NCBI RefSeq assembly: GCF_017939745.1
Contig: NZ_JAGKQQ010000001.1
Coordinates: forward strand, 6,773,299 to 6,837,298
Length of the DNA stretch: 64,000 nt
Origin: Gemmata palustris
Lineage (GTDB): Bacteria > Planctomycetota > Planctomycetia > Gemmatales > Gemmataceae
Direction: 5' to 3'
This document shows, piece by piece, positions 22,755 to 57,299 of the stretch. The notes under the pieces were generated by a model. That model saw only the letters and a program-made list of their open reading frames with translations. It made no database searches and was not told where the DNA came from. The position numbers and the translations under genes were made by a program. How positions within the stretch are numbered: the stretch's first letter is position 1; each line of letters opens with the position of its first letter.

Positions 22755-23462
22755 ATGCTGGTATCCACGATTAAGGCCGTTCGCGAACCATTCCGTCGCG
22801 CCGGACGCAAGCTGTTCTACCGGCAGCTAATAGAGCGCATCCGCTCCAGCGGGCCGATGAGCGATCCCGCGAGCATCTTCGACTACGGCGCGCGCGGCAA
22901 TCTCGGGCTGATTTCGCCGATCCAGTCGCGCCAGGAGCTGGTGCCCGTGCTCGAGATCGTGCGCCAGGCGCGGCCGCGCACCGTGATGGAGATCGGCACC
23001 GCCAATGGCGGCACGCTCTTCATGCTGACGCGTGTGGCGGCGCCGGACGCAACGATCATCAGCCTGGATTTGCCGGGCGGTGACTGGGGCGGCGGCTACG
23101 CGGCGGAGCGCATCCCGCTTTACGAGGCGTTCGGGTTGCCGGCCCAGAAGATGTGCCTGCTGCGCGGCGACTCGCACCGGCCCGAGTCGCTCGATCAAGT
23201 GCGCGAGATCCTCGCCGGCAGGACGATCGACTTTCTCTTCATCGATGGCGATCACACTTACGAAGGTGTGCGTATGGATTACGAGATGTATTCGCCACTG
23301 GTGACGCCCGGCGGCATGATCGGATTTCACGATATCGCCTACACCGAGGGCGTCACCCGTCTGTGGAACGAGGTAAAGGCGAACTCCGCGCAACCTCGCG
23401 AGTTCGTTTCCACGGCGGCCCCCGTTTACGGTATCGGCTTGGTACGAACCCCTCCTGCCTGA
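22755..23462 (+). CDS. Class I SAM-dependent methyltransferase (CmcI/macrocin-like)
   Basis: 235 residues from ATG 22755, with GAGGGGAG 8 bases upstream; upstream in-frame codons belong to a transposase relic. Rossmann fold motifs: TVMEIGTANGGTLFML (glycine-rich SAM site), IISLDLPGGDWGGG (acidic residue), IDFLFIDGDHTYEGVRMDYE (the DGDHTYEG segment typical of the cephalosporin-hydroxylase/Methyltransf_24 group, metal-dependent in several members) and LVTPGGMIGFHDI. Such enzymes often modify sugars or natural products; the substrate here is unknown. Lone gene between IS relics, so possibly acquired. No signal peptide. Confidence 0.8.
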   Translation: MLVSTIKAVREPFRRAGRKLFYRQLIERIRSSGPMSDPASIFDYGARGNLGLISPIQSRQELVPVLEIVRQARPRTVMEIGTANGGTLFMLTRVAAPDATIISLDLPGGDWGGGYAAERIPLYEAFGLPAQKMCLLRGDSHRPESLDQVREILAGRTIDFLFIDGDHTYEGVRMDYEMYSPLVTPGGMIGFHDIAYTEGVTRLWNEVKANSAQPREFVSTAAPVYGIGLVRTPPA

Positions 23463-23558
23463 TCGCGGTGGGGCCGACTCATCTCGACTTTGATCGCCGG
23501 CCTCTCGGTCAATGTGCTTTTTAGTGTGCGATAGTGTACAGGTCCATGTGGCTCCACT

Positions 23559-23582
23559 CGCGAGTGCTAACGAGCGGGTGGA
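23559..23582. repeat. Partial copy of the GCTAACGAGCGGGTGG palindromic element
   Basis: Bases 23559-23582 are identical over 24 bases to 57279-57302, the right arm of the hairpin upstream of metH's neighbour. The left arm is missing except for CCACTCG, so this is a half element. Confidence 0.7.
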
Positions 23583-23730
23583 TGTGCTCAATCACCACCC
23601 GCGGTGAATTTTACTGGATTTCCGTATACATATCGCCTATAATTCACTACTCAGCGAGTGCCGCGCTCGAAGCACGCGAGGGCGTGATCGGTAACACGGG
23701 GAGCGAAAACGAGCGTCGTGCGAGGGGCTG

Positions 23731-23868
23731 TGTTAGCGAATGTTAGCCACGGTTACCGTGCCCAGGAGGGCCGAAATGGTGCGACTCCTGGAAATTTCAG
23801 CCGTTCGTATCGCAATCATCGGGTACGGGCCGCTCGCGGGCCAAAATGTTAGCGAATGTTAGCGACGG
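23731..23868. promoter_or_regulatory. Two heptad direct-repeat boxes upstream of mcsA (candidate operators)
   Basis: TGTTAGCGAATGTTAGC occurs at 23731-23747 and 23847-23863, each followed by SACGG. Each box is the heptad TGTTAGC repeated directly with a 3-base spacer (GAA). The CtsR operator of Firmicutes, which controls ctsR-mcsA-mcsB, also is a heptad direct repeat with a 3-base spacer (GGTCAAA), but with a different sequence. The boxes lie 302 and 186 bases before mcsA. A regulatory role is inferred. Confidence 0.4.
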
Positions 23869-24032
23869 CCCCTCGGCTCGGGGCACGGGTGCGGAATTTC
23901 GGGCCGAAATCGCTGCGCCAGTGGACACAAACCCGTTAACGGAATGGGCGGCTCTCGGGCTCATGACGTCGCGGGCGCCAATGACAACGAGTGCCTCGAC
24001 TGTTAGAATGCCCTTACGCGGAGGGGCGGCCA

Positions 24033-24506
24033 ATGAAGTGTCTGCGGTGTCCGAAGCAAGCCACCTACCACATTACCGAAGTGCTCCCCGGGGACCGGTT
24101 CGAGGAGGTCCACCTGTGTGAGGACTGCGCCAAGAAGTATCTCGTAGAGCCGCAGAAAAAGGCCGCGGCCGGGCCGACCGTTGACGCGAGCGAGGCCGCC
24201 GAGGAGGTCTTCGCCCGCCCCACGTGCGAGTCGTGCGGGCTCTCGTACCTGGAGTTCCGCAACCACGGGCGGTTCGGCTGCGCGCACGACTACGACGTGT
24301 TCAAGGGGGAACTGCTCCCGCTGCTGGAGAGCATTCACGGCGACGTGCGGCACGTCGGCAAGGCCCCGCGCCGGTTACCGCGTGCGCAAGGCGCACAGGT
24401 GGAACTCACCGCGCTCCGCCGCCGCTTGCAACAGCTCGTGACCGAAGAGAACTACGAAGAAGCGGCCCGGGTCCGCGACCGCATCAAGGAGCTGGAGAAC
24501 GGCTAA
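24033..24506 (+). CDS. mcsA: McsA-like zinc protein with UvrB/UvrC motif (first copy)
   Basis: 157 residues from ATG 24033 (GAGGGGCG 8 bases upstream). Two zinc knuckle pairs: MKCLRCPKQATYHITE with HLCEDCAKKY, and CESCGLSYLEFRNHGRFGCA followed by HDYDVF, the classic McsA layout. The C-terminus ends in a UvrB/UvrC (UVR) helix pair LQQLVTEENYEEAARVRDRI. In Bacillus, McsA binds and activates the arginine kinase McsB. It is first of a likely operon mcsA-mcsA-mcsB-vanZ on the plus strand; 68 bases separate it from the second copy. Cytosolic. Confidence 0.85.
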   Translation: MKCLRCPKQATYHITEVLPGDRFEEVHLCEDCAKKYLVEPQKKAAAGPTVDASEAAEEVFARPTCESCGLSYLEFRNHGRFGCAHDYDVFKGELLPLLESIHGDVRHVGKAPRRLPRAQGAQVELTALRRRLQQLVTEENYEEAARVRDRIKELENG

Positions 24507-24574
24507 CCGTTCGCGCGTTTCATTGTGTTTCGATTGCGTGCCTCGAATTTGCTTGTTCCCGCACAGGGTGCGGC

Positions 24575-25057
24575 ATGAAGTGTCAGACCTGCGACAACCC
24601 GGCCACTGTTCACCTGACTGACATCGTGAACAAAAAGAAGCGCGAGCTGCACCTGTGTGAGACGTGCGCGCGCGAGCGCAACCTCATTCCCGAACAGCCC
24701 GGCCCGCAGATCGACCTGAAGGCGCTCCTGAGCCTGCTCACGACCCCGCACGCGCCGGGGAGCACCGGCGCCGAGCCGCGCCCGGAGCCGGTCGCGACCG
24801 CGTGCGAGATCTGCGGGATGACGGTCGCCGAGTTCAAGGCCGCCGGGCGCCTCGGGTGCCCGCACGACTACGAATCGCTACGTTCCACTTTGGAACCGCT
24901 GTTGGAGCGCATCCACCGGTCGATGGCGCACGCGGGCAAGGCGCCGCGGGCCGTGCGGGTGCGCGACTGGAAGAAGCAGATGCAGGTGGCGGTCGCCGCA
25001 GAGGACTACGAAGAAGCGGCCCGGCTCCGCGACCTGATCCGCCGACACGAAGCATAG
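24575..25057 (+). CDS. mcsA: McsA-like zinc protein with UvrB/UvrC motif (second copy)
   Basis: 160 residues from ATG 24575. Same layout as its neighbour: MKCQTCDNPATVHLTD and LHLCETCARER, then CEICGMTVAEFKAAGRLGCP followed by HDYESL, and a UVR segment AVAAEDYEEAARLRDLIRRH. The two copies share the frame GRxGCxHDY and the UVR helix but differ strongly in the linker (here Pro-rich, ALLSLLTTPHAPG). They are tandem paralogues, not a recent duplication. A role in activating or targeting McsB/ClpC is inferred from the family and the adjacent mcsB 94 bases downstream. Confidence 0.85.
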   Translation: MKCQTCDNPATVHLTDIVNKKKRELHLCETCARERNLIPEQPGPQIDLKALLSLLTTPHAPGSTGAEPRPEPVATACEICGMTVAEFKAAGRLGCPHDYESLRSTLEPLLERIHRSMAHAGKAPRAVRVRDWKKQMQVAVAAEDYEEAARLRDLIRRHEA

Positions 25058-25151
25058 TTCCGAGTACCGGGTTCCAGCAGTTCCGAGTTCGACGGCGGGC
25101 GCTGCTGGGGATTTCCAACTCGGACCTCGGAATTCGGAACTGGAACCAGCA

Positions 25152-26219
25152 ATGAATCTCGACAGCCTGCTCCCCAACCTGGGCGAATGGCTCCGCGGCA
25201 CCGGCCCCGAGTCGGACGTGGTCGTGTCCACGCGCATCCGCCTGGCGCGCAACCTCGCCGATTTGCCGTTCGCCACGCGCGCCACGAGCGCCCACAAAAC
25301 CGAAGTGATCGGCCGGGCGAAGGACGCGCTCGCCAAGTCCGACGCGGCGCTGAAGCTCGAGTACATCGACATCCCGTCGATGGCCGCCCTCGACCGCCAG
25401 TTCCTCGTCGAGCGGCAGCTCATCAGCCGCGAACTCGCGGGCGGGCTCGACGGGCCGCGCGGGGTCGCGTTCGATCCGACCGAAACCGCCAGCGTGATGG
25501 TGAACGAAGAGGATCACTTGCGCCTCCAGGTGCTCCGCAGCGGCTTCGCCCTCGACGAAGCGTGGCAGGACATCGACCGCCTCGATGACGCGCTGGAGCA
25601 CCGGCTCAGTTACGCCTTCCACACGCAGTTCGGCTACCTGACCGCGTGCCCCACCAACGTCGGCACCGGGATGCGTGCCAGTGTGATGCTGCACCTCCCC
25701 GCGCTCGGGCTGACGAAGCAGATCGACAAAGTGTTCCGCGCGCTCCAGAAGATCAACCTCGCGGTCCGCGGGCTCCACGGTGAGGGGTCGCGCGCGTTCG
25801 GCGACCTCTACCAGATCTCGAACCACGTGACTCTCGGAAAGAGCGAAGCGAAGATTCTGGGCGAGATCCGCGAGGTGATCGTCACGATCCTGCAGTACGA
25901 GCGCCAAGCGCGCGGCGCGATCGTGAAGGAGCGCCGACAGGCGGAACACGACCGCGTCGCCCGGGCCATCGGGACGCTCGGCAGCGCGACGATGATTACC
26001 GCCGAGGAGACGATGGAACTGCTCTCCGCGGTCCGGCTCGGCATCCACCTGAACTTGCTCGACGGCATCCCGGTCACGGCGGTGAACCAGCTCTTCATCC
26101 ACACGCAATCGGCCCACCTGCAGAAGCTCGCGGGGCACAACCTCGACGGCGAGGAACGGAACTCCGCCCGCGCGAAGTACCTGAAAACCAAACTCCGCGA
26201 ACTCGGTTCCCATAAGTGA
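25152..26219 (+). CDS. mcsB: Protein-arginine kinase McsB
   Basis: 355 residues from ATG 25152. It belongs to the guanidino (creatine/arginine) kinase family in its bacterial protein-arginine kinase form: VVVSTRIRLARNLADLPF (nucleotide-binding arginines), ASVMVNEEDHLRLQ, and the catalytic-Cys segment GYLTACPTNVGTGMRASVML. The N-terminal kinase-specific helical domain is reduced, as usual for McsB, and a C-terminal dimer domain is present. McsB phosphorylates arginines on misfolded proteins and marks them for ClpCP. The leader holds an imperfect GGTTCC inverted repeat (25069-25148). The vanZ-like gene overlaps its stop. Confidence 0.93.
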   Translation: MNLDSLLPNLGEWLRGTGPESDVVVSTRIRLARNLADLPFATRATSAHKTEVIGRAKDALAKSDAALKLEYIDIPSMAALDRQFLVERQLISRELAGGLDGPRGVAFDPTETASVMVNEEDHLRLQVLRSGFALDEAWQDIDRLDDALEHRLSYAFHTQFGYLTACPTNVGTGMRASVMLHLPALGLTKQIDKVFRALQKINLAVRGLHGEGSRAFGDLYQISNHVTLGKSEAKILGEIREVIVTILQYERQARGAIVKERRQAEHDRVARAIGTLGSATMITAEETMELLSAVRLGIHLNLLDGIPVTAVNQLFIHTQSAHLQKLAGHNLDGEERNSARAKYLKTKLRELGSHK

Positions 26220-26809
26220 AGTCAGAACCTCAGATTCCAACTCCGGCGGCCAAACCTACCCCCCCGTCCCCCCTCCCTGAAGGGAAGGGTGGGAAAGAAA
26301 ACTCTGGGGTAGGTAGTGTGTCCTCAAGCACAGCGCGCGCCTGCTCCCCCTTCCCTTCAGGGAGGGGGGACGGGGGGGTAGGTTCTTCTGGCGGTTTCAC
26401 CCCTTCAGGGGGGGGGAATTCCTCCCGCGGCAGCCGCCTTCGTTTCTTCGTGTTCGCGCTGTTTCTCGGCCTCTGGACGTGGAAACTGCTCGAGCCGATC
26501 CCGGTTCCCGAAGCGCTGGTGGGGCGCCTCGGCGACTGGAAGTTCTACGCCGCGAAGTTGCTCCACGCGGGCGCGTATGCGTTCCTCACGGTGTTGGCCG
26601 TGACGCTGCCGCTGCCGCGCTACTGGCGCTGGTATTTCGTGGGCTTACTCGCACTGCACGGGGGCGCGACCGAAATTGGTCAGACGTTCGTCCCCAGCCG
26701 CACCGGTAGCGTGCGCGACGTGGCGATCGACTGGGTGGGAATCAGCTTGGGCTTACTGACGTGGTTCGTGATGAGCGGCGGGCGGTTGGCGAAAAGGAGT
26801 GATGAGTAA
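26216..26809 (+). CDS. VanZ-like membrane protein with element-encoded N-terminal insert
   Basis: 197 residues from GTG 26216, overlapping the mcsB stop (GTGA), so probably translationally coupled. Residues about 13-57 are encoded by the 132-base palindromic element 26253-26384 (exactly 44 codons) and are Pro/Gly/Ser-rich (PTPPSPLPEGKGG). The rest is a VanZ-type protein: FFVFALFLGLWTWKLLEPIP, YAAKLLHAGAYAFLTVLAVT, WYFVGLLALHGGATEIGQTF followed by VPSRTGSVRDVAIDWVGISLG, giving about four membrane segments and the conserved E...Q and RxGsxxDxxxD motifs. VanZ-family function is poorly known (envelope, glycopeptide tolerance). A start after the insert (no ATG present before SRLRFF) is not obvious. 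Confidence 0.75.
   Translation: MKSEPQIPTPAAKPTPPSPLPEGKGGKENSGVGSVSSSTARACSPFPSGRGDGGVGSSGGFTPSGGGNSSRGSRLRFFVFALFLGLWTWKLLEPIPVPEALVGRLGDWKFYAAKLLHAGAYAFLTVLAVTLPLPRYWRWYFVGLLALHGGATEIGQTFVPSRTGSVRDVAIDWVGISLGLLTWFVMSGGRLAKRSDE
26253..26384. repeat. Palindromic element inside the vanZ-like gene (AACCTACCCCC type)
   Basis: Arms 26253-26284 and 26353-26384 are perfectly complementary over 32 bases, beginning AACCTACCCCCCCGTCCCCC and ending CTCCCTGAAGGG. Total 132 bases, a multiple of three. It is the cleanest member of the family also seen at 15001, 38105 and 40762. Confidence 0.85.
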
Positions 26810-57232: not shown

Positions 57233-57299
57233 ACCCGCTCGTTAGCACTCGCGGCTCGCCCAGAGATTCCAGGCGAACCGCGAGTGCTAACGAGCGGGT
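57233..57299. repeat. 28-bp inverted repeat (ACCCGCTNGTT family)
   Basis: Arms 57233-57260 and 57272-57299 are complementary with one mismatch and an 11-base loop; the arm ACCCGCTCGTTAGCACTCGC then GGNTCGCC is the metH-side copy of the family at 50743 and, as a half element, at 23559. It lies between the ABC operon and metH, both minus strand. Confidence 0.78.

Follow-up and report, generated by a model that had tools for sequence, protein, structure and literature searches.

The CtsR operator of Firmicutes, as given in PMC12634643, is a pair of direct heptads, A/GGTCAAA NAN A/GGTCAAA. Here, we analyse a 64,000-nucleotide stretch of Gemmata palustris DNA (assembly GCF_017939745.1, contig NZ_JAGKQQ010000001.1, positions 6,773,299 to 6,837,298, hereafter the window) in which a box of the form TGTTAGC-GAA-TGTTAGC occurs twice upstream of the genes mcsA-mcsA-mcsB-vanZ. 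Both copies, pointed out by an earlier sequence-only reading of this DNA, are exact matches on the + strand: box1, TGTTAGCGAATGTTAGC, lies at 23731-23747 and box2, again TGTTAGCGAATGTTAGC, at 23847-23863, 116 bp downstream of box1. That reading had noted that the arrangement of two direct heptads with a 3-bp spacer is that of CtsR operators and that the letters are unlike GGTCAAA; both statements hold, the heptad being TGTTAGC. The boxes also resemble the looping operators of lac and ara, in that two like sites lie on one helix face, with a period of about 11 bp and at intervals of 71-140 bp. For comparison, fits to repression and looping by lac in living E. coli yielded 11.1 and 11.6 bp per turn (PMC1762422). 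With moderate confidence, we propose from the sequence patterns described below that the two boxes form the arms of a nucleoprotein module that is dispersed between genes, would modulate local transcription and is built in the order sigma70-like promoter (P), box1, middle motif (M), box2.

The number of boxes in the window is not decisive alone, because the three matches found at up to three mismatches (shuffle mean 1.7) are reached in 27 of 100 shuffles. The genome to which the window belongs (G000; 9.23 Mb in 3 contigs) contains 106 exact copies of TGTTAGC-N3-TGTTAGC and none of the reversed pattern and, when two mismatches are allowed, 284 boxes against 48 matches of the reversed control. 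The sequence-only reading had asked whether the boxes might be chance matches or mere parts of a palindrome family containing GTTAGC. The counts dispose of the first concern, and the boxes are also separate from the palindromes, which have a different core, CGAGTGCTAACGAGCGGGT, and copies of their own.

Among 58 relatives, exact boxes are abundant in two genomes that, with G000, we call the clade (65 in G008 and 62 in G010); one further exact box is found in a more distant member of the class (G044) and none in the other 55. Within the genus, the boxes are confined to 3 of 19 genomes, and at two mismatches each of the 16 other members has fewer box matches than matches of the reversed control. 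Searching the GTDB collection with an extended box pattern gave 10 matching stretches, of which Gemmata sp. IIL30 (the G. massiliana type strain; PMC4672568) contributes 9. The sole match outside Gemmata, in a metagenome-assembled genome of UBP13 (L151), lies in AT-rich DNA and was taken as chance. We also looked for an analogue written in other letters in the sister genome G002, where 400 kb (about 4% of the genome) held 49 seven-three-seven repeats and no recurrent heptad, bar one local array. The element appears unreported in the literature searched, which comprised listings and the openings of abstracts together with passages of PMC3733652 and PMC4672568 and from which subscription papers were excluded; the passages of the former, on REP repeats, do not mention Gemmata.

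The layout was established on 81 loci of the main contig (C1) of G000, which carry 93 of the 106 exact boxes, the other 13 being on other contigs, and on 40 stretches of G008, which carry 42 of its 65. Because loci were chosen for an exact box, box conservation is biased, whereas M, P and spacing are unaffected. All of these boxes (93/93 and 42/42) lie outside the genes called by our own codon-usage script. In 61 of the 81 G000 loci, a second box with at most two mismatches is found on the same strand within 400 bp, the best partner always lying 71-140 bp away, while a search within the same limits for an inverted partner found none at any of the 81 loci. The distances between boxes cluster near 72, 82, 107, 117, 128 and 139 bp, with outliers at 96 and 122 bp, and follow a period of 11.3 bp (R 0.79) that none of 5000 jittered sets matched in strength. 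These loci comprise a long-spaced class of 52, in which the two boxes span about 124-157 bp, and 9 further loci with boxes 71-96 bp apart.

In the long-spaced class, a search by expectation maximisation (EM) identified M, CTTGAAATNTCAGCAGTTGGTGCG, between the boxes, with a likelihood gain of 760 against 314 for shuffled sequences. M scores above a log-odds of 7.5 in 45 of the 52 loci, and a model trained on half of the loci finds it in 23 of the 26 others and in 0 of 26 shuffled sequences. The arm from box1 to M measures 56-61 bp in 32 loci, 67-69 bp in 12 and 50 bp in one; the arm from M to box2 measures 58-61 bp in 28 loci and 68-71 bp in 17. Rounded, the arms measure about 58 or 69 bp and about 59 or 70 bp, corresponding to n or n+1 helical turns; both follow a period of 10.6 bp, with a strength that none of 2000 jittered sets reached. 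The four combinations all occur in the 45 loci: short/short in 24, short/long in 9, long/long in 8 and long/short in 4. The module differs from looping operators by having direct heptad pairs in place of palindromes, a third conserved site mid-way and many copies in a genome, where those serve one operon. We considered whether M could be a site for IHF, whose consensus is WATCAR-N4-TTR, and rejected this candidate, the consensus being present in only 2 of the 52 long-spaced loci; a one-base-shorter form, YCAR-N3-TTR, is found in 23 of them against a shuffled mean of 1.3.

The layout recurs in the second species, and the full two-box form is commoner in G000. Box distances in G008 are 72, 72, 108, 117-121 (8 loci), 128, 128, 129 and 139 bp. 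The M model derived from G000 finds its motif in 9 of the 13 G008 loci whose boxes are at least 100 bp apart and in none of the shuffled sequences, with a first arm of 58-59 bp and a second of 59-62 or 69-71 bp.

Ahead of the boxes and on the same strand lies P, a sigma70-like motif (tTTGTaTTcttnTGTnCAcTAGnnTAtAATT). Above a score of 8, it is present upstream in 48 of the 81 loci, on the other strand in 9 and downstream in 0 or 1, with the proviso that fitting the model to forward-strand sequence favours the forward count. When the P core was searched genome-wide independently of the boxes, it was found in 3 of the 19 genus genomes, the same three that carry the boxes. G000 has 19 such sites, of which at least 13 have an exact box within 350 bp downstream and 3 more have M; 3 of the 19 have neither M nor a listed exact box within that distance. 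Conservation begins about 6 bp before P (34 loci) and ends a few bases past box2. The module is about 220-330 bp long in most loci showing all its parts. The spacer of P, TGTNCACTA, is conserved like the -10 and -35 elements (for example at G000:C1:367355-367373), which suggests that a second regulator may bind there; the spacer may also resemble the core of a DnaA box.

A promoter that drives into the boxes could also belong to a family of small non-coding RNA genes, with the heptads acting as RNA motifs. The position of P on the same strand is consistent with this, as are the modules that have no co-oriented gene ahead (see below), a consensus fold of 25 copies that scores -3.8, where shuffled columns give about 0 and the opposite strand 0, and a mean fold z-score of -0.87 against -0.42 for the other strand. 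The consensus fold, however, comes wholly from heptads pairing with each other, the z-scores are weak and the covariation term of 0.12 gives no compensatory support for an RNA structure. No terminator-like intrinsic site was seen within about 170 bp downstream at any of the 81 loci (1 on the control strand), a scan of 23400-24200 found no Rfam family at its gathering score, and whole-turn spacing points to DNA. Such an RNA family is thus very unlikely. A structured RNA or riboswitch-like leader was set aside as well, single-copy folding, the covariation fold and the Rfam scan all being unconvincing; the one Rfam match, to a trypanosome snoRNA at 22.9 bits against a gathering score of 60, was taken as chance.

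In the nucleoprotein module that we favour, a putative protein would bind each TGTTAGC-N3-TGTTAGC pair, whose heptads would face the same side of the helix since they are one helical turn apart. The two bound pairs and a second factor at M would share one helical phase, and the pairs could come together, the 107-140 bp between them being bent or looped with the bend made at M. As the bend or loop would lie downstream of the module's own promoter, the complex may gate transcription from P and so modulate the input into the neighbouring gene. Its spread through intergenic DNA would date to the clade's ancestor, with copies aligned more often with the neighbouring genes than opposed to them; the copies would since have been kept for their architecture as the filler sequence drifted. 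More tentatively, the module may represent a new class of promoter-bearing nucleoprotein element that reached about 100 intergenic places and became domesticated in a single Gemmata clade, its full copies placing M whole turns away from each box; one protein system would then fold the DNA alike at many sites, providing a chromosome-wide switch or scaffold that sister species lack.

The surroundings of the modules bear on this proposal. Module-bearing gaps of G000 have a median of 566 bp; the medians of module-free gaps are 142 bp (tandem), 290 bp (divergent) and 121 bp (convergent). With gap types that are approximate because of the gene calling, the 81 loci fall into 41 tandem gaps co-oriented with the module, 15 tandem gaps opposed to it, 15 divergent and 10 convergent gaps. 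In tandem gaps, the module therefore runs along the genes in 41 cases and against them in 15 (p 0.0007). The genes that follow include those for glutamate dehydrogenase, glutamate synthase, DNA polymerase A, undecaprenyl diphosphate synthase and two sigma factors. In a separate observation, loci L048 and L061 carry a single box no more than about 10 bp from a stop codon within a packed row of genes; G000 and G008 have both kept it, and the letters of the spacer differ between them.

Several of our results count against a module that regulates its neighbours through a looped architecture. A co-oriented gene ahead is missing for 25 of the 81 modules (the 10 convergent ones and 15 opposed to both neighbours), and modules are split over gap types approximately as intergenic length is. 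The 56 co-oriented downstream genes, which made up the family scan (30 upstream genes pointing away from modules lay outside it), share no function, and no Pfam family occurs in more than 3 of them among the 25 of 166 families listed. P does not exceed a score of 8 in 33 of the 81 loci, and its distance to box1 varies from 38 to 272 bp, with 35 of 42 values within 70-153 bp. Furthermore, the posterior of the first M fit, above 0.8 in 49 of the 52 long-spaced loci, passes the same criterion in 40 of 52 shuffled sequences, which makes this criterion worthless and leaves the log-odds, the likelihood gain and the held-out test to count. A second direct box is absent from 20 of the 81 G000 loci; in 9 of these, an inverted heptad lies 10-45 bp ahead of the box, and the other 11 are single. 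A partner box was found in only 10 of 40 G008 loci at two mismatches (15 at three), and the 9 stretches of strain IIL30 are single-box, 0 of 9 having a partner at three mismatches. Finally, 4 of 10 orthologous pairs with two boxes in G000 have no partner box in G008.

Some of these features would suit sites of chromosome architecture, where a nucleoid protein anchored at the boxes would wrap or bridge the DNA with no role in regulating particular genes. Modules occupy every type of gap, including the convergent ones, the genes downstream are a functional mix, the boxes of the long-spaced class span about 124-157 bp, and the spacing of modules over the main contig is indistinguishable from random (coefficient of variation (CV) 0.94; random 95% range 0.80-1.21). 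For a site of purely structural function, one would expect neither a conserved promoter pointing into it nor a preference for the direction of the neighbouring genes, and we regard this explanation as rather unlikely. Replication-oriented marks were also considered and rejected: the spacing is random, as just stated, and 53 modules point along the leading strand against 28 along the lagging strand, in halves defined by GC skew with turns set by hand at 2.3 and 5.3 Mb. A leading-strand bias is often seen for genes too. In the fetched stretches of C1, the GC skew changes sign near 5.2-5.4 Mb and 1.7-2.3 Mb, which possibly mark an origin and a terminus, and the best DnaA match on C1 is at 6.15 Mb.

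We compared three module loci with their orthologous stretches in relatives. At mcsA, the module is absent from all 15 relatives' stretches (three mismatches allowed), several of which share the gene-adjacent promoter. At gdhA, two boxes lie 139 bp apart in all three clade genomes and none at the same place in 15 other orthologous stretches; a -10-like TATAAT or TACAAT is found near the gene in 16 of 17 stretches (the upstream region of L169 was not covered). At uppS, the boxes of the three clade genomes are 117, 118 and 118 bp apart, lying further upstream and behind another gene in G008 and G010, and no module is present in 16 other stretches. Isolated three-mismatch matches (L169, L186 and L190) were taken as chance in these comparisons, and some relatives' stretches were cut short. 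Since relatives outside the clade have no boxes at the three loci, the module was added in one clade.

Of the 40 G008 loci, 14 share at least two flanking genes with a G000 module locus. We compared 16 pairs between the two genomes, leaving L100/L054 and L047/L124, which have one gene or a repeated gene in common, out of the counts and including L092/L050, which aligns at only 42% and may be another gap. Among the 10 orthologous pairs with two boxes in G000, 6 keep the second box in G008, its distance unchanged or altered by 1 bp; in one of the six it has 4 mismatches, and the stretches align at 54-63% identity. Within a genome, copies are mostly 61-74% alike over about 150-350 bp and up to 84% over shorter stretches, the best-scoring such pair reaching 74.5% over 318 bp. 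Of the 8 pairs with the highest scores, 7 join orthologous loci of G000 and G008 (all figures being from the best 70 of 2231 alignments). This record points to an old spread of the module, after which the layout was partly retained.

Such a history is also what a domesticated or dormant mobile element might leave, namely a non-autonomous insertion in which box-M-box was the assembly site of a recombinase or transposase and P is a leftover. The module is absent from the same places (mcsA, gdhA, uppS) in relatives, it is dispersed and sits in long gaps, its copies can be aligned within a genome, and conservation drops to background outside P and box2. In phage attachment sites, direct site pairs one turn apart flank a core, and the idea draws on this likeness; phage and integrative and conjugative element (ICE) attachment sites share with the module direct pairs of short sites that flank a central motif at whole-turn spacing. 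They differ in that the module has many intact copies per genome and that M shows no clear inverted repeat. Similarly, REP, REPIN, ERIC and MITE sequences are intergenic, multi-copy, lineage-specific and absent at the same places in relatives. Unlike them, the module has a promoter-like motif and no inverted partner box, and it conserves motif order and whole-turn spacing but hardly any of its filler. The terminal inverted repeat or palindrome by which MITE and REP elements are defined was not seen, either among box partners or, for the other termini, in the conservation profile, by which alone they were judged. The lack of recent copies, the best within-genome pair being 74.5% alike, and the lack of inverted partners both speak against mobility, and neutral relics would not be expected to retain M and whole-turn spacing after such drift. 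A mobile origin of this kind is possible without being probable. A mobile-element assembly site or a nucleoid scaffold would use the same geometry as the transcription-modulating module that we prefer.

At the mcsA locus, M (CTGGAAATTTCAGCCGTTCGTATCGC) occupies 23788-23813 on the + strand with a log-odds of 14.4, starting 57 bp past the start of box1 and 59 bp ahead of box2. A degenerate box, TGTTAGC-CAC-GGTTACC, overlaps box1 at 23741-23757 (+ strand, 2 mismatches), GGTTACC forming a third heptad. A P-like sigma70-type promoter of variant form, TGGATT-N17-TATAAT, may lie at 23613-23644 (+ strand); we infer this placement by eye from loci L029 and L039, and the top pick of the P model lay elsewhere, further upstream (score 10.5). 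Outside the module, at 23981-24009 (+ strand), is an older mcsA promoter, ATGACA-N17-TAGAAT, common to box-less relatives. Among the 10 of 18 mcsA loci listed, the promoter stretch CAATGACA...GTTAGAATG also precedes mcsA in L132, L133, L134 and L136, all without boxes; it is weaker in L137 and L138, and none was seen in L135. From the end of box2 to the -35 of this shared promoter is 117 bp, and both boxes are upstream of it. At mcsAB, the module stands upstream of the operon's own promoter and not on it.

This position bears on the idea, suggested by the sequence-only reading, of a CtsR-type operator that controls mcsAB. The module resembles a CtsR operator in its two direct heptads, 3-bp spacer and spacing of one helical turn, and one copy stands before mcsA-mcsB. 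It differs in that its boxes are often paired about 117 bp apart, lie upstream of the gene's own promoter and occur at some 90 or more loci before mixed genes. Overlap with the -35/-10 region or the start site, by which CtsR operators are recognised, is not seen at mcsA, and the different letters and the 117 bp that separate the boxes from the -35 argue against control of this type. As the sequence-only reading had said, no ctsR is visible: a search with PF05848 found none in the 19 genus genomes, with a sensitivity limited to 1 of 14 controls (Lactococcus lactis) and a miss in Bacillus subtilis. Bacillus subtilis has CtsR. The check for boxes before clp or other heat-shock genes that this reading had proposed showed 1 of 8 Clp D2-small open reading frames (ORFs) directly downstream of a module; stress genes are touched, and no heat-shock regulon was seen. 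The gene concerned is ClpA/B-like (L075; NCBIfam scores below cut-offs) and begins 14 bp after the module; a further Clp-type ORF stops about 285 bp short of a module (L103). A CtsR-like heat-shock repressor acting on mcsAB and other protein-quality genes could draw on these two neighbours, on mcsA and on the heptad-3-heptad spacing; given that the search of limited sensitivity found no CtsR, the other letters, the off-promoter position and the mixed targets, we consider it highly improbable.

Helical phasing is usually shown at single promoters by means of engineered spacing series. Here, one genome yields dozens of natural spacing variants, in which both arms flanking a central site measure whole turns. 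Should protein binding be demonstrated, the modules would offer a natural looping series and an example of how a regulatory or structural module can spread within a genome. They would also open a way to study gene control and nucleoid structure in Planctomycetes, in which, to our knowledge, few regulators are known.

Downstream of the module in the window, all on the + strand, are two mcsA copies at 24033-24506 and 24575-25057, which score 39 and 29.8 bits for the UVR motif, above the Pfam cut-off, and 116.1 and 115.9 bits for the NCBIfam McsA model, below its cut-off of 210 bits. They are followed by mcsB, encoding a protein arginine kinase, at 25152-26219 (NF002194 425.9 bits, cut-off 385; ATP-gua_Ptrans 226.9 bits), and by an ORF of the VanZ family at about 26450-26809 (NF037970 37.5 bits, over the cut-off). 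The tandem mcsA genes, which the sequence-only reading had thought unusual, are not so in the genus: two copies are present at 16 of 18 loci, and of the remaining two, one has a single copy and one, on a cut-off contig, has none. The copies in the window are about 36% identical which, together with their presence at 16 loci, points to an old duplication.

Between mcsB and vanZ, at about 26250-26405, lies a long inverted repeat with G/C runs, and a similar stretch is found upstream of the L071 module. The CGAGTGCTAACGAGCGGGT palindromes, at one mismatch, number 41 in G000, 63 in G008, 40 in G010 and 1 in G016, with 0 in the 15 other genus genomes; the three genomes rich in them are the same three that carry the box modules. 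They often form inverted pairs about 48 bp apart, and in the window they are found at 23561-23579, 57233-57251 and 57281-57299.

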